Shown one piece after another: positions 4,965 to 45,021 of a stretch of 45,816 bases of DNA. The DNA is taken from IMG/VR virus record IMGVR_UViG_3300024518_003916, positions 1 to 45,816 of that record, one strand, 5' to 3'. Position 1 is the stretch's first letter; every line of letters starts with the position of its first letter. The notes under the pieces are model-generated. The model was not told the origin of the DNA, did no database searches, and saw nothing but the letters and a program-made list of their open reading frames with translations. The position numbers were made by a program, and so were the translations under genes. The stretch comes from a virus.

Positions 4965-5171
4965 TTAAGACCCGGAGGCGGATCGGAGTCTGCGGAGTTC
5001 CGCTTCGAGGTCTGAGACTTTGGCGCGTAGATCAGCCAGCTCGTGGGCTGTGACGCTCCCGCAAAATGCCCCGGGCTCCCCGTGTGGTTCGTGCAGCGTC
5101 TCGTTCATCACGAATGGCTCATCCAGCGGCTTATATCGCCCGCAGCAGCATTGCTCAGGCATTCCACCCAC
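4965..5171 (-). CDS. small Cys-rich protein with C-terminal coiled coil
   Basis: Up to 68 residues, unknown function. The N-terminal half has a CCCG cluster, two His and a later Cys, a possible zinc site; the C-terminal 25 residues form a clear leucine-zipper-like heptad pattern (LADLRAKVSDLEAELRRL). The listed start is a GTG directly abutting the upstream stop; an ATG at 5162 with a GGTGGA upstream is an equally good start. It is wedged between two genes with almost no spacing, ahead of the primase-helicase, so a dimeric adaptor for replication is a reasonable guess only. Confidence 0.6.
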   Translation of the reverse strand: MGGMPEQCCCGRYKPLDEPFVMNETLHEPHGEPGAFCGSVTAHELADLRAKVSDLEAELRRLRSASGS

Positions 5172-5639
5172 TCACCTCTCACCGGAGGCCTGCAAGCGGA
5201 TTACCTGCCCACCCTCCGGCCGTATCAACTTGCCGCCCTCATCGGAGGAGGCCACGACGATCGCGGTCGCCCTGGCCTTCCGGTCGTAGAGGAGGGCCCA
5301 CTCTCTCGGCTGTCTCAGCGCGGCGGCGGCCTCATCGTTGCCTCGCGCTGCTATCCGAGCCAGCCGCCCGCGTTCGACGGTCCGGATCCGGTTCTGGATC
5401 GTCTTGACCCAGCCCATCTTCTTCCCGCCCTCTCCTCCCCACCACTCCAGGACCTCCTCGATGTATTGGTCGAGCGTGGTGAAGCTCTCGAAGGCTCCTC
5501 GCGAGACCCAGGGGATGGTCTTCTCCGCCCAGCCGTGGATCTGGCGGATCTCCGGAGGGGAGAGGGTCTCGGGGGCGAAGGTTCTGCCGCGTGGCTTCGC
5601 GGCGGCGTCGTCGAATAGGTCCCCGGTCTTGTCGGGCAT
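5172..5639 (-). CDS. hypothetical protein, first gene of leftward early operon
   Basis: 155 residues, not recognised. It has a conserved-looking central helical region rich in Trp (about 37-80) and a beta-rich C-terminus. Its ATG lies in the left arm of a perfect 20-base inverted repeat whose right arm carries the ATG of the first rightward gene, so both early operons begin with the same leader and nearly the same first codons. As promoter-proximal gene it is probably expressed very early; a role in takeover or regulation is inference. Confidence 0.7.
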   Translation of the reverse strand: MPDKTGDLFDDAAAKPRGRTFAPETLSPPEIRQIHGWAEKTIPWVSRGAFESFTTLDQYIEEVLEWWGGEGGKKMGWVKTIQNRIRTVERGRLARIAARGNDEAAAALRQPREWALLYDRKARATAIVVASSDEGGKLIRPEGGQVIRLQASGER

Positions 5640-5796
5640 GTCGTGGCGGCGTCCTCTCTGCGGCGAGCTATTCCCGGCCCGCCGACCTGCTCCTTCGTGA
5701 TACCACAGACGGGCGACGGCGTGGGAGTTTTTTCTTGACCCACGGCGACTATTCGTGCAGGATCACCTTCAACCACGAGGACGCCGCCACGACATG
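5637..5796. repeat. perfect 20-base inverted repeat flanking the control region
   Basis: The left arm 5637-5656 and the right arm 5777-5796 are exact reverse complements; each, read outward, is GAGGACGCCGCCACGACATG and ends in the start codon of its operon's first gene. The match continues 6 more bases into both coding regions with one mismatch (MPD versus MLD). Upstream of the arms similarity stops abruptly. Each mRNA therefore has the same ribosome-loading region. Confidence 0.9.
5640..5793. promoter_or_regulatory. divergent early control region
   Basis: 154 bases between the two divergent early operons, so it must hold at least two outward promoters. On the plus strand TTGACC (5735-5740) is a good -35 box after an A/T-rich T6 run, but no matching -10 at 16-18 bases is obvious (GCAGGA/CAGGAT are poor). 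On the minus strand TTGAAG and GAATAG are spaced too closely. Promoters may therefore need an activator or be unlike sigma-70 sites. Confidence 0.5.
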
Positions 5797-12953: not shown

Positions 12954-13289
12954 GTGATCCTCACTCTGGACGCCGACGGCCGCTACATCCAGGGGCCCGA
13001 CTGCGGAAAGGTCGCGATGTTGCTCGACGCTGGGGCGAAGCGGAGGGTCCCGCCCAGGAGGTTCCCGCCCCGCGCTGGTCGGCAGTATGTAGCCGTTGAG
13101 ATTCAGGGCACCCACGACGCCGCTCTCTGGGTCCAGGACGACGTGGACTTCAAGCGCTGCAAGCGAGACGACGACCGATTTATCGTCTGGCTGGAGATGG
13201 AGACCGAGCCCCTGGTGAGCGCTGGGCGTCTGCCACCAGACCAGAAGGTGAGCAACTACGAGGACCGGGCCTTCCCGGGGATGTGGTGA
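12954..13289 (+). CDS. hypothetical basic protein
   Basis: 111 residues, GTG start with GGAGGA upstream. Unknown function. The N-terminal half is basic and Pro/Arg-rich (KRRVPPRRFPPRAGR), the C-terminal half has alternating strands with Trp and acidic residues. No known motif seen. Its stop overlaps the next start (TGATG). Confidence 0.6.
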   Translation: MILTLDADGRYIQGPDCGKVAMLLDAGAKRRVPPRRFPPRAGRQYVAVEIQGTHDAALWVQDDVDFKRCKRDDDRFIVWLEMETEPLVSAGRLPPDQKVSNYEDRAFPGMW

Positions 13290-13399
13290 TGTGGTGGCTC
13301 GGATGCGTCCGGAGATGGTTGAGGGAGATCACCTCGGAGCCCACCTACTGCGATGGCTGCAAGCGCTTTTCCAGGGGCTTCATCTGTCCCTACTGCTAG
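13289..13399 (+). CDS. 36-residue zinc-ribbon mini-protein
   Basis: A short gene overlapping the previous stop by one base. The peptide has a Trp/Arg-rich front (residues 2-12) and ends in CDGC (21-24) and CPYC (33-36), a complete four-Cys zinc ribbon closing exactly at the C-terminus. Two CxxC knuckles of this quality in a coupled frame make it a probable gene. Function unknown; such ribbons often bind nucleic acid or a larger partner. Confidence 0.65.
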   Translation: MWWLGCVRRWLREITSEPTYCDGCKRFSRGFICPYC

Positions 13400-13405
13400 G
13401 AGATC

Positions 13406-13594
13406 ATGCCGAAAAGGCCGCACGCTACGGGGCATCGTTTCGGCCCCGACCTCGTCTGCCTCTGTGGCGTCGAATGGGAGTCCCACCAGACCGCACAGAC
13501 CGAGTGTCCGCTGGCCAGGACCGAACCCGACGCCTCGCCGGATGAGCCGGGAGACGTGGAGTCCGAGGAAGAGACGCCAGGATCAGGTGCCTGA
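13406..13594 (+). CDS. small Cys/His protein, last rightward gene
   Basis: 62 residues with a good site (AGGAG) before the ATG at 13406. Residues 7-35 carry H, CLC, H and C in a zinc-finger-like order; the second half is acidic and disordered. Unknown function. It ends the rightward operon 4 bases before the stop of the last leftward late gene. Confidence 0.6.
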   Translation: MPKRPHATGHRFGPDLVCLCGVEWESHQTAQTECPLARTEPDASPDEPGDVESEEETPGSGA

Positions 13595-13596
13595 TC
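13581..13596. terminator. hairpin between convergent operons
   Basis: GATCAGGTGCCTGATC is a perfect 7-bp inverted repeat with a 2-base centre (or 6 bp with a 4-base loop), located at the meeting point of the rightward early and leftward late operons. No T-run follows. It may stop or slow both transcripts, but the stem is short. Confidence 0.4.
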
Positions 13597-13598
13597 TC

Positions 13599-14096
13599 CT
13601 AGAGGTCGATCCAGAGAAGCTCGATCCCGGCGTCCGTCGGCGTCGCGCCCTGGTTCTCCCACTGGACGAGGTAGTCCCCGGCGGCGAGGATCCAGCCGTA
13701 GGTCTCCAGCTCCAGAGGGTCGAGGGCGTTGTAACGATGTCCGGCGTTCGAGAAGAACTTCGCGAGCTTCGTCCCGTCGGCCACGACGGTCGGGGTGTGG
13801 AACACGATGGCGGACGAGGTGATCGAGTCGACCCGGTTCCGGGCCACGACCGTTAGAGGCGTCCCGTCGGCCACGGGATCGTCCGGGGTGGGGCCGTCGT
13901 AGAGGGCGCCGTAGAAGTCCCCGTCCCCGGAGAAGGCGAAACCGAGGAGGATCCCGGCGCCCGCTGCCACTCGGACCAGAAGCTCGATCTGTGCCGGCGA
14001 GGCGCCGACGGCCTCGTCCTCGTGGGTGACGGAGAAGACGCGGCCAGCATCGAGGGCGGCGGCGTAGCTGTATTTCGAGAAGGCGCTAGCAGGCAT
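13599..14096 (-). CDS. virion-type protein, paralogue of the upstream gene
   Basis: 165 residues. It is clearly homologous along its length to the gene at 14108-14608: same start region, RVAAGA core, AxNRxxS segment, DGTKL..FFSN segment and identical LxWIDL end. The last 20 bases or so are nearly identical in DNA. The fold looks all-beta. Such proteins at the distal end of a late operon are often fibre-, decoration- or receptor-binding-related; the family itself I cannot name. Confidence 0.75.
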   Translation of the reverse strand: MPASAFSKYSYAAALDAGRVFSVTHEDEAVGASPAQIELLVRVAAGAGILLGFAFSGDGDFYGALYDGPTPDDPVADGTPLTVVARNRVDSITSSAIVFHTPTVVADGTKLAKFFSNAGHRYNALDPLELETYGWILAAGDYLVQWENQGATPTDAGIELLWIDL

Positions 14097-14107
14097 GGCC
14101 CACCCTC

Positions 14108-14608
14108 CTAGAGGTCGATCCAGATCATCTCGATCGTCGCGTCCGTGACGCCGGCCGAGTGGTTATCGAACTGGAGGAGGTAGTCGCCGGGGTCCAGGAT
14201 CCAGCCCCGCTTCTCGATGTCCAGGCCGTCGACCCCGTTGACCCGCTGGCCGTTGTTCGAGAAGAACCTCCGGAGCTTCGTCCCGTCGTCCGAGACCGTC
14301 GGGCCGTCGAAGGCGAGCGTCGTCGAGGTGTTCGTGGAGATGCGGTTCCGGTTCAGGACAGCAATAGCCGCGCCGTCCGCGCCCGTCGTCGGGTCGGCGT
14401 AGAAGCCCGCCCAGCAGTCCGCCCCGCCGCTGATCGCGAAGGCGAACCGGATCGCCGCCCCGGCCGCCACACGGAGGAGGACCTCCTGCTGGCCCGGCCC
14501 GCCGTTCTCGGCCGGGACGTCGTCGACGTCGAGAGTGGCGGAGAAGGCCTGGCCATCCCGGATCGCCGTTGCGTAGCTGAAGGGGTCGATGATTGACTGG
14601 CCGCTCAT
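14108..14608 (-). CDS. virion-type protein, paralogue of the downstream gene
   Basis: 166 residues, all-beta in look, tandem duplicate of the gene that follows it. Compared with its partner it differs mostly in surface-like loops, which fits divergence after duplication. It has GGAGGCAGCC upstream of its ATG. It is placed after the lysis cassette rather than with the tail genes, as are some accessory fibre or decoration genes. No enzymatic motif is visible. Confidence 0.75.
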   Translation of the reverse strand: MSGQSIIDPFSYATAIRDGQAFSATLDVDDVPAENGGPGQQEVLLRVAAGAAIRFAFAISGGADCWAGFYADPTTGADGAAIAVLNRNRISTNTSTTLAFDGPTVSDDGTKLRRFFSNNGQRVNGVDGLDIEKRGWILDPGDYLLQFDNHSAGVTDATIEMIWIDL

Positions 14609-14650
14609 GGCTGCCTCCTCTGCTGGCGCGAAGGTATCGGAGGGCGCGAC

Positions 14651-14887
14651 CTATCGCCCGCCCCGTAGCGCCTCGATGTACGCCGAGTAGGACATGCACT
14701 CCCAGCCGAACTCGGCCAGCGGCGTCCCGTCCTCTCGGGCGGCCTGTTCCTCAGTCGCCTCGTCCATGATCGGCGGCCTCTGTAGCACTCCGAAGCTCGG
14801 CGGCGCGGGCTTCGCGCATCCGACGAGCGCGAGCGCGGCGACCGACGAGAGTCTTAGGAGGGTGGTCCAGGTGGATCTTCGCTGCAT
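14651..14887 (-). CDS. outer-membrane lipoprotein, o-spanin-like (Rz1-like)
   Basis: 78 residues. A basic N-terminus and hydrophobic stretch end in a lipobox (LVGC, residues about 21-24), so the mature protein should be a lipoprotein of roughly 55 residues, with Pro-rich start. Its 5' 137 bases lie inside the preceding i-spanin-like gene in another frame, the usual Rz/Rz1 arrangement. O-spanins join the i-spanin across the periplasm and fuse the two membranes at the last step of lysis. The lipoprotein call is firm; the spanin role rests on context and overlap. Confidence 0.75.
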   Translation of the reverse strand: MQRRSTWTTLLRLSSVAALALVGCAKPAPPSFGVLQRPPIMDEATEEQAAREDGTPLAEFGWECMSYSAYIEALRGGR

Positions 14888-15026
14888 CGTTGGCCTCTTG
14901 GTTCGCTTCGAGCGTGTCGGTCCGGTGCTCTGCGACGGCCTGGGCGCTCTTCGCCCTGACGAGCCTCCGGATCAAGAGACCCACCAGGGCGAAGAGTCCG
15001 CCGAGTGCTGCGAGTAGGGCTTTCAC
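14751..15026 (-). CDS. inner-membrane i-spanin-like protein (Rz-like)
   Basis: 91 residues from a GTG at 15026 that overlaps the preceding stop (GTGA). One membrane helix at about residues 2-20 is followed by a charged helical region, giving the N-in, C-out topology of Rz. The 3' half is shared, in another frame, with the lipoprotein gene. It is shorter than lambda Rz (153), but comparable to small i-spanins. Two further small membrane or exported proteins sit between it and the endolysin. Confidence 0.65.
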   Translation of the reverse strand: MKALLAALGGLFALVGLLIRRLVRAKSAQAVAEHRTDTLEANQEANDAAKIHLDHPPKTLVGRRARARRMREARAAELRSATEAADHGRGD

Positions 15027-15364
15027 TCGGGCGGCGCGGGCGGAGGAGTATCTCCGGCCGCACACATGGGGCCGAGCAGGTCGCCGACCTTCGGGATCAG
15101 ACAGATCCCGCCCAGGATGTTGATCGTCGCGTTGCCGCACGCCACGACGCCGCCCCCGTAGCCCACCTCGAAGTCGACGAAGTCGGCGGCATTGAGCCCG
15201 ATCGCGGGAGGCCACGCAAAGCGGACCACCTTGGCGTCCAGCGCGGTATCGAAGGAACAGTCCGCGGCGTAGGCTGGGCTGGCGGCCAGCACGAGCCCGC
15301 CGAGCACGAGTAGCAGGACAGCGCCCCTGACGATCGTCCCTCTGAGAGCCTCTGAGAGCTTCAT
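15023..15364 (-). CDS. exported Cys-containing protein in lysis cassette
   Basis: 113 residues with a classic signal peptide: basic N-terminus, hydrophobic core at about 14-28, and AYA-AD cleavage near residue 34. The mature part has four Cys, likely two disulfides, a Gly-rich middle (GYGGGVV), and a Pro-rich tail. No known family recognised. Coupled by ATGA and GTGA overlaps with its neighbours, so it is made together with the endolysin and spanins. It could be an envelope-weakening accessory or an anti-superinfection factor. Confidence 0.7.
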   Translation of the reverse strand: MKLSEALRGTIVRGAVLLLVLGGLVLAASPAYAADCSFDTALDAKVVRFAWPPAIGLNAADFVDFEVGYGGGVVACGNATINILGGICLIPKVGDLLGPMCAAGDTPPPAPPE

Positions 15365-15663
15365 GGATTCCCCCTCCTCTGGCAGTCCTGGACGTCGCGC
15401 TCCAGGTCTGCGATCACGAGAGCCAGATGGCTCACGACTGAAGCCGGGATTCTATCATCCCGGGCCGCCTCTGCCTCCAGGGCTCGGAATGTGCGGTCCT
15501 CCAGGTCGTCGGAGACGGCCTCCCTGGCGCGTCCCATCGCGGCCAGGAAGGTCGCCTCCTCCCCCCGGTACTCTCCCCCCAGAAAGGCGCCGAGAGGGAC
15601 TGCCAGGGCCAGCGCGATCTTCAGGACCAGGCGGACCCACTCGGGCGCCGGCCCGAGGCTCAC
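15361..15663 (-). CDS. single-pass membrane protein in lysis cassette
   Basis: 100 residues from a GTG at 15663 overlapping the endolysin stop (GTGA). A membrane helix spans about residues 10-29; the rest is a charged helix with coiled-coil character and a late Cys. The topology resembles an i-spanin or antiholin. A longer start at 15711 would run back into the endolysin gene and is less likely. No family recognised. Confidence 0.7.
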   Translation of the reverse strand: MSLGPAPEWVRLVLKIALALAVPLGAFLGGEYRGEEATFLAAMGRAREAVSDDLEDRTFRALEAEAARDDRIPASVVSHLALVIADLERDVQDCQRRGNP

Positions 15664-16058
15664 GGATCGAGTTCCGCATGGATGTGGACGTTCCACTCCT
15701 TCCCGTGACACGAGACGTCATAGTTCACGCCCTGGCGCGCGAGCAGGTCGACCCTCATCCTGGCGGCCCAGGCCTCGCCGATCGTCCGGCGATCCTCCAG
15801 GACGTCCGTCGTCCCCCAGAGCGAGATGTCGAAGGCGTTGTTCCGCTCGTGGGCGTCCAGGGTGTCCCGGATCTTCCGCCAGCCCTCCGAGACTATGACC
15901 TCCGTCATACCGTGAGGGGCGGTCCGGAGCGCGGACTGGACGATGCACCAGACCTCGGGGCGTGTATTGCCCTCGGTCAGAATGCAGCCCCGGCGAGCCT
16001 TCTCGGAGCTGTCCTTCCAGTCGGCCTTTATGATGAGCCGCGGGCCCTTGTAGCCCAT
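15660..16058 (-). CDS. M15/VanY-like peptidase endolysin
   Basis: 132 residues. The C-terminal half has the metallopeptidase M15/LAS signature: His70-x6-Asp77 (in HERNNAFD) and the H-x-H at 125-127 (EWNVHIH), the three usual zinc ligands being His70, Asp77 and His125 with a nearby acid. The segment EGWR at 58-61 corresponds to the conserved region before the first His. Such enzymes cut peptide cross-links of peptidoglycan. There is no signal peptide, so release depends on the holin-like protein encoded just upstream. The N-terminal 45 residues are basic and not recognised. Confidence 0.75.
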   Translation of the reverse strand: MGYKGPRLIIKADWKDSSEKARRGCILTEGNTRPEVWCIVQSALRTAPHGMTEVIVSEGWRKIRDTLDAHERNNAFDISLWGTTDVLEDRRTIGEAWAARMRVDLLARQGVNYDVSCHGKEWNVHIHAELDP

Positions 16059-16061
16059 CTC

Positions 16062-16490
16062 TCAGTGTCCTCCGGGTGGCTGCGAGACCGTCCCGAGCCA
16101 CTCCCAGACGCGCTGCAAGATGGCCCAGAGCCCGACCGCTCCTGCCGCGCTCGCTCCGCCGACGACGGCCGTCTGACTTGGGGTCGCCCCATGAGCGCTC
16201 CCGGCGATCTCCATCTTCTCGTGGGCCGCGAGGTCGTCCCGGACGCCGTCGATCTTGTGGTGCGTCCCGTCCAGCCGGTCGTCCACGACATCGAAGCGGC
16301 GGTTCGTCTCGGTCTCCTGGGCGGCCTGCCTCTCGTGGCCTTGCGTGAGCCCACGGGCTACCTCGATCCGGAGCGCGCTCGTAGCCTCAGCGCTGCCTCG
16401 GATCATCTTCTTCGCTTCATCCAGGGACTCCCCGAAGTGGCTCATCGTTGACTCGATCTTGCCGAGTGTCCGCTCGATCTCCTCGCTCAT
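16062..16490 (-). CDS. holin-like protein (coiled coil plus C-terminal membrane helix)
   Basis: 142 residues from the ATG at 16490, which overlaps the upstream stop (ATGA). Residues 1-95 are charged and helical with heptad pattern; a membrane helix follows at about 107-126 and the end is short (WLGTVSQPPGGH). The layout is that of XhlA-type holin components. It directly precedes the endolysin gene. A second holin partner may be one of the small membrane proteins downstream. The longer open frame to 16829 is a shadow of the upstream gene. Confidence 0.65.
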   Translation of the reverse strand: MSEEIERTLGKIESTMSHFGESLDEAKKMIRGSAEATSALRIEVARGLTQGHERQAAQETETNRRFDVVDDRLDGTHHKIDGVRDDLAAHEKMEIAGSAHGATPSQTAVVGGASAAGAVGLWAILQRVWEWLGTVSQPPGGH

Positions 16491-17017
16491 CCGGTTCTCC
16501 GTCGTCGTCTCAGGTGGAGGATCGTCAGTAGCAATAGGCCGGCAGATAGTAGCCGGCCCTGGGCGGGCTCGGGGACGTGGATCAGTGGAGGGGGTGGGTT
16601 GAGGCAGTTGCCGATCAGGATCGGAGCACTCCACGAGGAGCGATCTCGATGGAGAGGTCCCCCGTCGTGTTTGTGGGGAGGGTCCAGGGTAGCGGCCTGG
16701 ACTCGGGAACACCCGGGAGCGTCGAGGAGCGTCGCCTCGGCGTAGACCTCGTCCGTGGAGTAGCCGTGGCGCGCGGCGCGGTCCATCTCGTCCTGGGTGA
16801 GTCCGGACAGCGCCTTCGACGGCGCCCACTGGAACCAGTCCCAGTTCTGAGGCGAGGAGCGGAGGGCCAGATCGCGAGCGGCGCCGTTCGGTAGGGAGGC
16901 CTTGAGGGGGTCTGCCCAGAGGACCCGGCTCGCACCCTGCCAGGGATCGGCGAACGCGATCCGGGCGGCGGCGAGCGTCACCAGGAACACGAAGCCGCCC
17001 ACTGAGATCCGTTGCAT
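16487..17017 (-). CDS. exported protein with PEP-CTERM sorting signal
   Basis: 176 residues. The N-terminus is a signal peptide (hydrophobic 7-22, cleavage near FADPW). The C-terminus carries VPEP at 148-151, a hydrophobic helix at about 155-169 and a run of five Arg at 170-174: the full PEP-CTERM signal recognised by exosortases of some Gram-negative bacteria. The middle is unfamiliar, with Trp-rich segments (WDWFQW), two Cys and a Pro-rich linker before the signal. It is first in the lysis cassette, coupled to the holin-like gene. Known PEP-CTERM proteins are host surface proteins linked to exopolysaccharide; a phage copy may modify the cell surface during infection. Motif firm, role inferred. 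Confidence 0.75.
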   Translation of the reverse strand: MQRISVGGFVFLVTLAAARIAFADPWQGASRVLWADPLKASLPNGAARDLALRSSPQNWDWFQWAPSKALSGLTQDEMDRAARHGYSTDEVYAEATLLDAPGCSRVQAATLDPPHKHDGGPLHRDRSSWSAPILIGNCLNPPPPLIHVPEPAQGRLLSAGLLLLTILHLRRRRRTG

Positions 17018-17034
17018 GACGTCCGCCAGACCTC

Positions 17035-18711
17035 CTACCAGACCTTCACGATCGACATATTGCCGAAGACGTCCCTCGTCCCGGTCGAGTCCTGGTAGGC
17101 CACGCCACGCACGATCTGTCCGACGGCCAGCTCGATCCCGAGAGTGACGTGGACGATGGTATCCGAGTTCGTTGTGGGGTGAGGGTCGTTCTGGCCGAGC
17201 CCCCCGGACTCGATCGTCCCGTCGATACTGATCGCGATAGCGCGGTTGACCCCGCCGTTCGGCGTCCCGGTTCCTGAGTCTTCGTCGAAGAGGACGTTCA
17301 GCCCGATTTCGTACCAGCCAGCGCCGCCCGCTGGCACGGTGAAGCGGTCCGGGTTGGCCCCGCCGACGTCGATCATCCCGCCGATATCGGTGACCTCGGT
17401 CTCCCAGTCGATGTCTGTCGCGGTGTCGTGCGCGATATTGAAGCCCGTCGTCACAGTGGCCCGCGCTCTCGCCTGAGTCGCAGAGCTGACGAGCTGGGTC
17501 GCGCCGATCTCCACAGCGTCGATCTCGTTGGTCACGAGCGAGAGCTGGTCGACTCCAGGGGATCTCATCCCAGAGGTCGGGTCGGTCTGGAAGGAATAGA
17601 CCGGGTTTGTCTCCGTCCCGTCCGCCGCTCGGAGCTGTTCTGGCTGCGCCGCCCCGCCGTGGGCACGGACCACATGGACGCCGCCTGCCGTGAGGGCGAC
17701 CTCGTCAGCCGCTGGCCAGTAGACCCCGGTATTCGGGTCTCCGATGGGAGCGATCGATGGGAGCGGGGCGGTCCCGGCCGGGAAGAGGATCCTCAGGCTC
17801 GACGGCTCCAGGCCCGCCAGGATCTCGTCAAGCTGTTCGAGCCGATCGTGGAGCCCGTCGAAGTCCGAGAAGAGGAAGTGGCCGCCCGTGACCTTGATCC
17901 CTGTACTCGGTCCCTCGTCGGCGAACGACCCCCCGGTGACCGTCATCACGAGCGCCGAGAGGCCCGTGAGCGTATAGGGCCCATCGTTCAGCTCTGAGTC
18001 GTCGACCTGGATGTCCTGGCCGTTCACGAAGCCGTCGGCCGTCCAGTCGCCCACGGTCCTCTCCAGCGTGTCGGAGCCGTTGCCGTCGATGAACTCGATC
18101 GAGTCGGTCCCGTCGAACCACGGGGTCGTCCCGCGCCGGACTCGGCTCCGCTCGTAGTCGTCGCCGTCCCAGAAGACGGGAGCGAGCCGGGTCGGGTTCG
18201 AGAGCACCGAGCCCGAGTCGATGTCGAAGTGCCAGAGGTCGACGATCGACGGGAGCACAGAGGCCGTGTCCACGAGTGTCGGGATGCCCTGGGTGTTGAC
18301 GTTGAGGAAGCGCTCCAGCGTGTCCCCGCCTCCAGCGTAGGTCGCCGTCAGGACGGCCGCCGTCGCCGGGGCGACTCGGACGCCTTGGACCAGCGCGGAC
18401 CCTGTCGCGACGTCGATCCGGTTGTCGTTCGGGGCGTCCTGGATGGTCGGGAAGTAGGAGTGAACCCCGATCAAGCCGCCATTGACGTGGATCGTGTATC
18501 GATCGTATTGGAGCAGGTCGAGTGGGAGGACGGATCCGGGCCCCTGGATGTTGTTGATCTCCAGGGTGTGGAGGTTCACGGTATTGAAGAGCGTCAGGAG
18601 CGTCGCGTCGAGGTCGTCTCCGTAGGTGTAGTAGCTCGCCGAGGTCACGGCGCCCTGGCCCGACGCGAAGGCGACGTAGTAGTTGTTTCCGATGACCATC
18701 GTCTGAGCCAT
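17035..18711 (-). CDS. tail fibre / receptor-binding protein with C-terminal C1q-like domain
   Basis: 558 residues, beta-rich. Residues 1-200 resemble a fibre attachment region; 212-266 form a module also present in the upstream protein (SDTLERxVGxW..DGF..G pattern); 282-302 is a short coiled coil; about 318-350 matches the GDPNTGVYWPAADEVALTAGG pattern common in phage fibres; about 400-558 looks like a C1q/TNF-type jelly roll often used for receptor contact. It is the last tail gene before lysis, typical for a host-range protein. No intramolecular chaperone motif was seen. Confidence 0.75.
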   Translation of the reverse strand: MAQTMVIGNNYYVAFASGQGAVTSASYYTYGDDLDATLLTLFNTVNLHTLEINNIQGPGSVLPLDLLQYDRYTIHVNGGLIGVHSYFPTIQDAPNDNRIDVATGSALVQGVRVAPATAAVLTATYAGGGDTLERFLNVNTQGIPTLVDTASVLPSIVDLWHFDIDSGSVLSNPTRLAPVFWDGDDYERSRVRRGTTPWFDGTDSIEFIDGNGSDTLERTVGDWTADGFVNGQDIQVDDSELNDGPYTLTGLSALVMTVTGGSFADEGPSTGIKVTGGHFLFSDFDGLHDRLEQLDEILAGLEPSSLRILFPAGTAPLPSIAPIGDPNTGVYWPAADEVALTAGGVHVVRAHGGAAQPEQLRAADGTETNPVYSFQTDPTSGMRSPGVDQLSLVTNEIDAVEIGATQLVSSATQARARATVTTGFNIAHDTATDIDWETEVTDIGGMIDVGGANPDRFTVPAGGAGWYEIGLNVLFDEDSGTGTPNGGVNRAIAISIDGTIESGGLGQNDPHPTTNSDTIVHVTLGIELAVGQIVRGVAYQDSTGTRDVFGNMSIVKVW

Positions 18712-28944: not shown

Positions 28945-30084
28945 TTATGCGCCTGCCTCGGTCTCGCTCGCGAGCTGGATCGTCCCGTAGCGGTCCGTTC
29001 CGCCTCCGTCGAGGATGTTGAGGACGATTGTCCCGACCCCGAAGTCATCCGAGCCGAAGGTCAGCGCGTTGTCGTCGATCCGGATTGAGGCGTAGGGGAC
29101 CGTCCAGATCATATTGATCCCGACATCCGTGAGGTGCTTGATCGTCGCCATGCCCTCGAAGACGCCGCCGCCCTGGGTGAAGGGCTTCATCGTCGTGTGG
29201 GCCTTCCGGTTGTACTCGTATGCGAGGGAGACCGGCTGGCCTGCCCGCAGCGCTGAGGTCGCATCCGGAGAGGCGAAGGTGTCGAGATTCGGGAAGCGGA
29301 TCCGGCCGAGCAGAGGGTCGAGAAGCATGTCCGGGTCTGCCGCGTCGTAGTCCTCGACGAAGGCGTGGGTCGGGGTGTAGGTGACGTTGAGTTGATTCCC
29401 GACCGGCATGACCTGGGTCATGTCCAGCTCGCCCGAGGCCGCGATGACCCCGTCGTTCACGCCCAGCTCCGTCGCGCCGGCCGAGGTCGTGTCCACGATC
29501 GAGAAGGTCCGGACCAGAACGCCCGTCGCCGTAACGGTCTCGGTCGCCGCCGTGACGTCTCCGAACAGGAGGACCTTATAGGCGAGCTGGTAGTCGCCCG
29601 GCGTGTCGCCCGTCCCGTCTCCCACGATGACCTCGGTGATCTCCTGAGAGGTCAGGGTCAGGTTCGCGTCCGTGTCGTCGACGTCCCCATTGACCAGAGG
29701 GACGAAGGTCCGCGCGGCGTCGGTCCCGACCGGGATCGTGATCTGTTCGGCGGCCACGGCGGAGGCGGCGTCTGCGACGACGTCCGTCAGGCTCGCAGCC
29801 CCGAAGATGTACTGGGCGACGTCCTTCCTGAAGTTGAAGGTCGAGAGATTGAAGCTCGGCTCCAGCGACGAGAGAAGCTCTCGGTTGACGGAGATCGTCC
29901 CAGGAGAGCCGTCGGGCAGCGTGAGGAGATTGACCTCCTTCGCCATCTCCTGGCCAGAGAGGATTCCGACGTCGACCGGAGTCCCGAGGACGCCATCGAC
30001 TCGGGGCGTGAACTCGACCTTCGAGAACCCGAGGAGCAGATTGTCCCGGCTGAAGGTGTCCGGCGATCGGGCTTCCATCGGCAT
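28945..30084 (-). CDS. major tail (tube) protein
   Basis: 379 residues, beta-rich, with Thr/Asp/Gly-rich linkers. It lies just upstream of the frameshifted chaperones and tape measure, the standard position of the tube protein. Good ribosome-binding site (GAGGGGGAA). The middle (about 130-200) could be an extra Ig-like decoration domain inserted in the tube fold (SQEITEVIVGDGTGDTPGDYQLAYK), common in siphovirus tube proteins. It is on the long side for the family. Confidence 0.8.
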   Translation of the reverse strand: MPMEARSPDTFSRDNLLLGFSKVEFTPRVDGVLGTPVDVGILSGQEMAKEVNLLTLPDGSPGTISVNRELLSSLEPSFNLSTFNFRKDVAQYIFGAASLTDVVADAASAVAAEQITIPVGTDAARTFVPLVNGDVDDTDANLTLTSQEITEVIVGDGTGDTPGDYQLAYKVLLFGDVTAATETVTATGVLVRTFSIVDTTSAGATELGVNDGVIAASGELDMTQVMPVGNQLNVTYTPTHAFVEDYDAADPDMLLDPLLGRIRFPNLDTFASPDATSALRAGQPVSLAYEYNRKAHTTMKPFTQGGGVFEGMATIKHLTDVGINMIWTVPYASIRIDDNALTFGSDDFGVGTIVLNILDGGGTDRYGTIQLASETEAGA

Positions 30085-42393: not shown

Positions 42394-45021
42394 TCACCCC
42401 CCTCGGATGATCTGCGGCGCCGAGGGCACCACGTCCTGGCCTTCGATTAGGATGGCGCGAGCATAGGCCCTAGAGGCAGCGTCGACGAGGTCCTTGAAGT
42501 CGGATCTAGGGAAGCGAGTCGCCTCGGCGATGAAGGTGGCCGTCCAGGGGCCGCGGACGAGGTAGAGGTTCCCGTTCTCGGACTGAGCGGCGAGCGTCCT
42601 CGCGCGGGCCTCCTTCGAGCCCGTCTCCGTCGACGAGTGGACCTCGTAGCCCTGGAGCTTCCCGGCCAGGTAACTCTTCTGGCTCTTCCCGGCCTGTCCT
42701 GGGTCCTGGGGGAAGTCGATCACGACGCCATAGCCGTCGATCTCGGCCGTGTCCTCCATCCAGGTCTCGACCTTCCCTGGCGTCCCCTTCATCCGGTCGG
42801 CGTCGGAGATGTAGACGTTCCCGTCCAGGACGGCGATCTTCGTGTTCGCCGAGTAGGCGCTCGATGCGTCCTCGGAGGCCGCGAGGTCGTACCCCCGGCA
42901 GAAGGCCAGGCCGGGCGGGAGTTCGGAGAACTCGATGAGCTGGAAGTCCTTCTTCTGGAACATGCCGCCGCCGCGAGGCGTGGGGCTCTGGTCGAGCTGG
43001 CTGGACTCGGCGTAGCTCCCGCCGAAGGCTCGGAGAGGGGCCTTTAGCTTCTTCTCGACGGCCTGGCGACTGAAGCGCTCGGGCGCGAGGAGCTGATCCT
43101 TCCGCTTCCTCCAGTCCTGGCTCGTGAGGAGGCGGACCGGGCCGACCTTCTCCGCTCCGTCCGGGATCGGGGTCTTCGCGTCGAGCCACGTCGGGATCGG
43201 GAGGTCCTGGGTGTGGACGAGGCGGACCCGGCGCCTCGGGACGCCCTTCCTGGGGACGGTCGTGAAGCAACGACGGCCCGGGGTGAACTCCATCGGGAGG
43301 CAATTCCCAGAGATCGAGACGCGGCCATTCCTGCGGACGACGAGAGCGGTCGACGGAACCGAGACGCAATGGACCTCCCCGTCGTAGTCGCGCCTCGTGG
43401 TGTGGCGCTTCCCGATCTTCGACCATGATTTTCGCGGCCTCCCCGGCTTCTTCGATCGACGGAGAGTTAGGAAGTGCATCGGCTCGCCGTGCTGGGCCCT
43501 CGTGACGGCCGAGGAGGCCCATCCGACCTTCAAGGCCGCCTCCTGGAGATCGTCGATCATGCCACGGGATCGAGACGAGATGGATGGCCTGTCGCCCCGG
43601 ATCCCTCCTCGGTGGCCGTCTCCGTCGATGTACGCCTCCAGGAACGCCCAGAGATTCTCTGGCCCCATTTCCAGGAGCGCCCGGGGTGCCATCTTCGTCC
43701 AGGATGATCCGAGAGGGCGGAGCGACCGAGCCAGGGCCTTCGATCCGATCGTGAAGTAGGCGCGGCGGCCGTCGGGGCGCTCGTTGTATCTGAACGGGAA
43801 CGGGGACCGCTCCAGGATCTCGCGAATCCGTTCGGCCTTCGGCCCGATGTTCTGGGCGATCGAGGTGTAGCCGCCGGAGACCGAGGCGTTCCCCTCCGAG
43901 AGGTACCACCCCAGGAACTCCGCATAGGTCCGCGGGTCCCAGATCCGGCCCCCGAGTCGGACCGGCTTGTCGACTCCCTCCCATGATCCGAGGGCCTGGG
44001 GAAGGTAGAAGTCCTGGGGGAGATCCTCGGCGCTCCGGACCCTCCAAGTCCCAGGGCCGTCATTCGAGTCGGCGTAGACCATCCGGTGATCCGGAGTCAC
44101 CACGAGATCCGCCGTCATGGACGAATACTCAATAACCGGCCCCTGGTATCGCTTTCGGAGATGTCCCGTAGGCCGCTCCCATCGTCCCGCCAGAGTCACA
44201 GGATCGACCCCCATCACCAGAGCGCTCCTCGGGAGATCCCGGAAGAGAGTCCAGCCGGCCGGCGTGAGGACCTCCGTCCGATCGTCATAACAGAGCCACT
44301 CGTAGCCCAGCTCCTCCCGGAGGATCAGGCCGGAGACGTCGGACTCGTGGGTCCTCTGCTGGATCACGACGATCGCGCTCTTGTCGATGTCGTTCAGCCT
44401 GGTCGGCAGGACCTCGGAGAACCAGAACAGGATGTCGTCCCGGATGACGTCGCTCTCGACCGTCTTCACGTTGTTCGGGTCGTCGACGATGAGGAAGTCC
44501 CCGCGCTCCCCCATCCCGACGCCGCCGACCGAGGTGGCGAGCTTGAAGCCGTGGTGGTTCGTGTGGTAGAGCGAGTCCGCGAAGGAGACGAGCTTGAAGC
44601 GGTCCCCCCAGTTCCGCCGATAGATCGGGGACTGGAGGAGGATCTTCGCCTTCCTGGAGTCGCGCCTGGTGAGGGCCTGGGCGTAGCTGAAGCCGACGAA
44701 GCGCTTGTCCGGCATGTCCCGGGGACCCCAGACCCAGGTCGGGAAGAAGACGTCCGAGAGGAGGCTCTTCGAGAAGCCCGGCGGGACGTTCATGAGGAGC
44801 CGGGGGATGTGGCCGGCCGCGACGGCCTCCAGGTGGTCGCAGATCGCGTCCCAGGACCGGCCCCGGACGAGGGGCTGGCGCGGCTCCAGGGTCTTCCACA
44901 TGAGCGAGCCGTAGTCGGAGAGACTGTTCTCGGCCTTCAGGCGCTCGGCCTCGCAGAGGAAGCCCTGGGGATCCTCCCGGACGGCCTCCAGGAGTTCGGG
45001 GTCGAGCGCGGGCGCGGCCAC
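42394..45021 (-). CDS. terL: terminase large subunit containing an intein
   Basis: 875-residue precursor; the mature terminase after splicing would be 545 residues. ATPase part: Walker A-like VPPGFSKS at 79-86, Walker B FLIVDD at 176-181, coupling motif VIQQRTHESDVSG at 219-231. Nuclease part after the intein: Asp712 (GYDLAASED), a VVIDFPQDPG strand, and Asp844/Asp847 near the end. The intein (residues 244-573) sits between the ATPase and nuclease parts, before Cys574. Start is a GTG abutting the small-subunit stop. Function: ATP-driven DNA packaging and cutting of concatemers. Failure to splice should block packaging. Confidence 0.92.
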   Translation of the reverse strand: MAAPALDPELLEAVREDPQGFLCEAERLKAENSLSDYGSLMWKTLEPRQPLVRGRSWDAICDHLEAVAAGHIPRLLMNVPPGFSKSLLSDVFFPTWVWGPRDMPDKRFVGFSYAQALTRRDSRKAKILLQSPIYRRNWGDRFKLVSFADSLYHTNHHGFKLATSVGGVGMGERGDFLIVDDPNNVKTVESDVIRDDILFWFSEVLPTRLNDIDKSAIVVIQQRTHESDVSGLILREELGYEWLCYDDRTEVLTPAGWTLFRDLPRSALVMGVDPVTLAGRWERPTGHLRKRYQGPVIEYSSMTADLVVTPDHRMVYADSNDGPGTWRVRSAEDLPQDFYLPQALGSWEGVDKPVRLGGRIWDPRTYAEFLGWYLSEGNASVSGGYTSIAQNIGPKAERIREILERSPFPFRYNERPDGRRAYFTIGSKALARSLRPLGSSWTKMAPRALLEMGPENLWAFLEAYIDGDGHRGGIRGDRPSISSRSRGMIDDLQEAALKVGWASSAVTRAQHGEPMHFLTLRRSKKPGRPRKSWSKIGKRHTTRRDYDGEVHCVSVPSTALVVRRNGRVSISGNCLPMEFTPGRRCFTTVPRKGVPRRRVRLVHTQDLPIPTWLDAKTPIPDGAEKVGPVRLLTSQDWRKRKDQLLAPERFSRQAVEKKLKAPLRAFGGSYAESSQLDQSPTPRGGGMFQKKDFQLIEFSELPPGLAFCRGYDLAASEDASSAYSANTKIAVLDGNVYISDADRMKGTPGKVETWMEDTAEIDGYGVVIDFPQDPGQAGKSQKSYLAGKLQGYEVHSSTETGSKEARARTLAAQSENGNLYLVRGPWTATFIAEATRFPRSDFKDLVDAASRAYARAILIEGQDVVPSAPQIIRGG
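43303..44292 (-). mobile_element. LAGLIDADG intein in terL (330 residues)
   Basis: Residues 244-573 of the terminase precursor. Block A begins with Cys244 (CYDDRTEVLTPAGW); block B has TPDH at 309-312; two LAGLIDADG helices are at about 369-377 (FLGWYLSEG) and 460-469 (FLEAYIDGDG), each with an acid residue for the homing endonuclease; blocks F/G read VHCVSVPSTALVVRRNGR and end in Gly572-Asn573, followed by Cys574 as +1 nucleophile. Penultimate His is replaced by Gly. Codon use looks like that of the host gene, which argues for long residence. Confidence 0.92.

Follow-up and report, generated by a model that had tools for sequence, protein, structure and literature searches.

A stretch of viral DNA of 45,816 nucleotides (IMGVR_UViG_3300024518_003916, positions 1 to 45,816; hereafter the window) carries a gene, designated P0001, whose product starts with a signal peptide and ends in a PEP-CTERM-like tail. 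The chances are close to even that this is a late phage protein using the exosortase pathway of its host, the phage supplying the cargo and not the enzyme. A broader proposal is put forward more tentatively, with appreciably less than an even chance: a lineage of tailed phages may make a private set of unrelated exosortase-tagged proteins, encoded in early, structural and lysis regions, and may re-dress the surface of the infected cell by means of the host enzyme. The gene and its signals are the following.

16487 to 17017, minus strand: P0001 gene, phage protein of 176 aa that has a signal peptide and a PEP-CTERM-like tail
16949 to 17017, minus strand: signal peptide, residues 1-23 (AFA before D24), from the sequence; helix 6-21, hydrophobicity 2.33
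16490 to 16576, minus strand: PEP-CTERM-like segment, residues 148-176 (VPEP, helix, RRRRR), from NCBIfam and Pfam alignments and AlphaFold2
17030 to 17036, minus strand: AGGAGGT, resembling a ribosome binding site, 12 nt 5' of the P0001 ATG; it overlaps the fibre gene's stop codon
16487 to 16490, minus strand: ATGA, overlap of the P0001 stop and the start of the next gene

The signal peptide, the tripartite C-terminus and the ATGA coupling to the downstream gene had all been claimed in a first-pass annotation and were all found. The hydrophobic N-terminus and its AFA site are plain from the sequence, the translation ends in VPEP (148-151 of 176), a helix with a hydrophobicity of 2.14 and RRRRRTG, and the ATGA at 16487-16490 joins the two genes. 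The P0001 frame is coding: codon statistics from 12 other genes of the window gave it a log-likelihood of +13.4, compared to -24 to -44 for four overlapping ORFs, and it was the best of the six frames in 10 of 10 segments along the gene, with negative values in two. AlphaFold2, run on the single sequence, predicted helices at residues 6-21 and 153-175 with usable confidence; the part between them is unreliable.

Proteins sorted by exosortase (EpsH/Xrt) are outlined in PMC1569441 as possessing a signal peptide, a PEP motif, a helix and a basic end, and several unrelated proteins per genome are described there that have the tail in common and show little homology outside it. As far as this outline goes, the phage group of P0001 has the same parts and also unrelated proteins sharing a tail. 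It differs from the PEP-CTERM/exosortase systems defined by TIGR02595 and PF07589 in that P0001 is encoded by a phage, among tail and probable lysis genes, that no exosortase was found in any of the eight phage records searched, and that its scores stay under the cut-offs. The whole protein reached 15.5 bits with PF07589 (cut-off 20.7) and 12.2 bits with TIGR02595 (cut-off 16), while the last 45 residues alone reached 19.7 bits with PF07589. Its C-terminal stretch was aligned by PF07589 and eight NCBIfam models, seven of them of PEP-CTERM or exosortase-dependent types, and the PEP-CTERM alignments cover residues 148-173. The tail assigned to PEP-CTERM in the first-pass annotation was matched by the models at scores below the curated cut-offs, and P0001 is therefore termed PEP-CTERM-like and not filed as a member. 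MYXO-CTERM, sorted by myxosortase, was also considered. Its tail is likewise tripartite, with helix and arginines, and its signature motif is described in PMC11980579 as containing an invariant cysteine. This assignment was rejected: P0001 matched the model with 8.3 bits (cut-off 20) and has no cysteine in residues 139-176, the last one being residue 138, ten residues before VPEP.

As a control, coding-like ORFs ending in a helix and a basic tail were collected from 36 records (40 out of 3063 ORFs); twelve of these records are partial, namely G002, G047, G057, G059, G070, G073, G075, G078 and the bin contigs L121-L124. PEP precedes the helix in seven of the 40, and these seven fall in four records, three of which have two each. 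PF07589 matched six of the seven motif tails, including that of P0001, and none of the 33 control tails lacking PEP, a comparison that is partly circular, with the seven chosen by motif and some control ORFs probably not being genes. The control shows that a helix and a basic end are not enough for a PF07589 score; it says nothing on processing.

The window corresponds with 99.9 to 100% identity to bases 7598-53413 of a second record, G001 (IMGVR_UViG_3300024520_000072). Although this record of 61,647 bases is classed as linear, the same 126 bases are present at both ends, so that a complete genome of about 61.5 kb, circularly permuted, is probable. Outside the part shared with the window, at 37-714, it encodes a second protein with a signal peptide, LPEP, a helix and arginines. 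This is the one motif tail that failed PF07589, as whole protein and as tail alone; NF038129 gave 20.1 bits (cut-off 65), the tail is 52% identical over 25 residues to a tail from G005 (BLASTP, E 7e-4), and the AlphaFold2 model is of low confidence outside the end helices.

Further PEP-tailed proteins are encoded on contigs that have structural genes in common with the window, two each in G005 and G010 and one each in G004, where the gene is cut by the contig end, and G043. Four of these six proteins exceed the TIGR02595 cut-off of 16: one of G005 (17.8), both of G010 (18.6 and 18.0) and that of G043 (20.9). With PF07589, whole proteins of G005 (24.5), G010 (21.5) and G004 (20.8) lie over the cut-off, and the other G010 protein (18.5) and that of G043 (19.6) under it. 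Neither library matched the second G005 protein at E 0.1, its tail alone giving 10.5 bits with PF07589, and the PEP-CTERM assignment of this protein and of the second G001 protein would rest mainly on the motif. In G043, signal peptide and tail are in different frames, as after one frameshift. In G004 (L026 4-975), the PEP-CTERM tail is not C-terminal; the frame continues through a lipobox-like stretch into another domain, and the NCBIfam model 'lipo-invert' for C-terminal anchoring matched weakly (13.6 bits, cut-off 37). This protein may be a fusion of a PEP-CTERM protein and a lipoprotein, or it may reflect a sequencing frameshift. Whole-record searches with PF07589 were in a first pass too strict for P0001 and gave no match in G001; scans of our own were used instead.

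When the tails were removed, only one of the 28 pairs among eight PEP-tailed sequences was alike by BLASTP, which fits the look of a sorting tag, one tail on many proteins. The pair consists of G005 5133-5675 and G010 14417-14923, and the tail appears to be kept in it, because the final 27 residues include 20 identities, compared to 41 in the 142 before, nine of the 41 being at the very start. Neither protein of this pair has a signal peptide, a misfit with normal export, hinting that in these two the tail may be no more than an anchor. Directly upstream of these genes, a lipoprotein gene was recognized by eye in both phages, an arrangement (L022 827-1587 in G005; L024 1489-2377, minus strand, in G010) recalling a spanin pair of reversed membrane topology.

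The PEP-tailed genes occupy various sites: beside the fibre gene (P0001), inside the structural block (G043), and, for those of G005 and G010, outside that block, beside replication genes or elsewhere. The genes soon after the G004 PEP gene match those following the second G001 gene, across the circular junction of G001 (45% over 77 aa, 55% over 31 aa), and one PEP locus seems to be common to G004 and G001. The pattern is wider than the first-pass annotation had seen and is not special to the lysis region, being located elsewhere in relatives too.

That annotation had placed P0001 at the head of a lysis cassette, next to a holin-like gene. The genes around it are listed below.

17035 to 18711, minus strand: tail fibre / virion structural protein, encoded immediately upstream of P0001 (phrog_13989, E 1.3e-6; phrog_28766, E 3.7e-4)
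16062 to 16490, minus strand: 142-aa protein with a long polar part followed by one helix (by eye; no family match)
15660 to 16058, minus strand: 132-aa protein in the place of the endolysin, with an H/D pattern that recalls M15 peptidases (by eye only; no match)
15361 to 15711, minus strand: 116-aa protein, single helix plus polar tail, resembling an inner spanin (by eye; no convincing match)
15023 to 15364, minus strand: 113-aa exported protein with signal peptide, no PEP motif (by eye; no convincing match)
14651 to 14887, minus strand: 78-aa lipoprotein (LVGC lipobox) resembling an outer spanin (by eye; no convincing match)

The term holin-like was not borne out for the 142-aa neighbour, in which one helix was seen by eye and for which no convincing family match was obtained. 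The placement fared better, in so far as the position agrees with that of lysis-like genes in relatives: by eye, a one-helix gene and an Rz-like (spanin-like) gene follow the tail fibre gene in G005, G010 and G091, and in G091 a lipoprotein gene overlaps the Rz-like gene. In G005, a protein similar to M15 peptidases is encoded further downstream (PF13539, E 7.9e-5, 23.6 bits, cut-off 25), to which the protein of 15660-16058 showed no BLASTP match; searches against solved structures yielded nothing useful. Since no convincing family match was obtained for any of the five genes that follow P0001, lysis is a label by position only, and by position this is likely to be the lysis region.

Among viral contigs, no homologue of P0001 was detected except in the near-identical twin G001, and none was found in 50,697 phage records. 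In the search of related phages, the gene was present in one of 11 capsid relatives, again the twin, and in none of the 35 other records compared. The PEP-tailed proteins of the relatives gave no tblastn match to P0001, and short tail queries against the phage records gave none either, a result probably made empty by the low-complexity filter. For the tails, contigs of 19 kb or more were regarded as long, and those sharing the gene at 28945-30084 as core, with the cut-off contig G004 included by its terminase and portal, which are near 60% identical. An initial notion that every long core contig bears a PEP tag was refuted by two fresh contigs without one, G086 of 54 kb and G088 of 33 kb, a loose PQP match in G086 not being accepted as PEP-CTERM. 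PEP tails thus occur in five of seven long core contigs (G001, G004, G005, G010, G043) and, by scanning, in none of 19 further long contigs that have a related capsid gene, a split with a probability of about 3e-4 by chance, the grouping having been made after seeing the data. Other long records, among them G028, G046, G069, G074 and G076, gave no match in a search confined to PF07589, and none of 14 well-known control genomes exceeded the PF07589 cut-off. The spread is patchy, as might be expected if the tails are host-dependent.

Capsid relatives with 49-59% identity were also located on four bacterial contigs from GTDB genomes, belonging to three bins. Two of the three encode an exosortase, which scored 245.9 bits in Candidatus Contendobacter odensis and 65.6 bits in a bin of Rhodobacteraceae. 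The Candidatus Contendobacter odensis bin specifies 17 PEP-CTERM proteins, while no PEP-CTERM match was obtained in the other two, including the second with exosortase. The phage contig in the Candidatus Contendobacter odensis bin, its capsid protein being 49% identical, showed no PEP tail in the 12.8 of 24.8 kb read. The bins indicate only that such phages may meet hosts with exosortase, if the binning is right.

If P0001 is indeed cargo of the host exosortase, it would be made together with the tail and probable lysis proteins and exported through the Sec pathway, with signal peptidase cleaving after AFA. Topology rules and the published PEP-CTERM model suggest that the C-terminal helix would then hold it in the inner membrane, with VPEP facing the periplasm and the arginines on the cytoplasmic side. 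The host exosortase would cut near VPEP and pass the protein to the cell surface. There, as a guess, it would most likely alter the surface of the infected or lysing cell, for example by blocking the binding of further phages or of released progeny.

In favor of this reading are the signal peptide and all three PEP-CTERM parts present in P0001, the concentration of the motif tails (seven in four of 36 records), and the exosortase in two of three bins with capsid relatives, one of them with 17 PEP-CTERM proteins. Host sorting, already suggested in the first-pass annotation, gains from the behavior of the tail relative to the controls and from the four proteins of relatives over the TIGR02595 cut-off, and loses from the lack of a PEP tail in G086, the nearest relative by tail genes. 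Also speaking against it are the whole-protein scores of P0001 below both cut-offs, G088 as a further core contig without a tail, the second G001 and second G005 tails being weak by models, the internal position of the tail in G004, the lack of a P0001 homologue beyond the twin in the data searched, and the two bins, one with exosortase, without PEP-CTERM match.

Some of these observations are accommodated by the main rival, which appears doubtful on balance and is nevertheless a serious possibility. P0001 could be an ordinary protein of the inner membrane, belonging to the lysis region, that is exported, held by its helix so as to face the periplasm and never cut by exosortase, the likeness to PEP being a common sequence at a helix boundary; such a protein could regulate or assist lysis or block the entry of DNA from other phages. 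The scores under the cut-off in both libraries and the lysis-like position would be explained, and the two related PEP proteins lacking signal peptides look as if the helix alone mattered. Against it stand the 33 control tails with helix and basic end, none of which PF07589 matched, and the clustering of the motif in a few related phages, with two per genome in three. Two results, the unmatched control tails and the presence in the twin of a second protein that starts with a signal peptide and ends in LPEP, helix and arginines, make it highly improbable that the tail merely happens to read VPEP, helix and arginines by chance, even though this second tail is a weak model match. Shuffled sequences gave on average 1.0 motif-like tail per 11978 ORFs compared to six found, with a pattern so strict that it rejects P0001 itself, which has a histidine in the helix.

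It is also conceivable, though unlikely, that the PEP-tailed genes are captured host genes (morons) still serving a bacterial function, such as in matrix or aggregation, and playing no special role in infection. One of the two PEP-tailed proteins of G010 (13252-14019) has the appearance of a typical bacterial PEP-CTERM protein, and its gene and the neighbouring PEP-tailed gene are on opposite strands. Yet this protein was unmatched when 369 genomes from the class to which one host bin belongs were searched, without positive control, and P0001 is tightly packed among its neighbours, with an ATGA overlap, and has no homologue in the data searched.

PEP-type tails have some precedent in viral contigs, because 13 virus-acquired proteins of the TIGR03118 family, with a C-terminal exosortase-interaction domain, are reported for hot-spring viral contigs in PMC11003980. 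The portion of that paper concerned with them counts one family, with no lysis region and no repeated unrelated cargo per phage group. Among the papers listed on PEP-CTERM or exosortase in phages, viruses and prophages, as judged from titles and the openings of abstracts, no such phage protein was described, and by the same measure no description was found of a phage group with several unrelated PEP-tailed proteins, one in a lysis-like region. The major capsid protein of the window has counterparts in Roseobacter phages RDJL Phi 1 and 2 and in Pseudomonas phages KPP23 and RSP (60% and 47% identical). No PEP-CTERM protein was found in the putative RDJL Phi 1 record (G025), and none by family search in the putative RDJL Phi 2 record (G028). 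If the exosortase reading of P0001 is true, phages feed cargo into a surface-sorting system of Gram-negative bacteria; exosortase would thereby be linked to the conflict between phage and host, and the PEP tail would serve as a sequence marker for host prediction of uncultured phages. The phage PEP-tailed proteins would offer small, defined substrates for probing exosortase function.

Some other features of these genomes were noted. In capsid relatives such as G013 and G024, the capsid gene is up to 66% identical, and the terminase, portal or tail genes are distant or were not found; structural modules have therefore probably been exchanged. The large terminase of the window (42394-45021, minus strand) contains an insert of about 320 residues (residues about 251-573) with a LAGLIDADG match (E 5.6e-7), absent from the compared relatives G002-G006, G008 and G010, and very likely an intein with a homing endonuclease. 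At 13599-14608 (minus strand), two adjacent genes, coding for 165 and 166 aa, have their matches at identical single sites in G027, G029 and G031 and thus look like a duplicated tail-associated gene.
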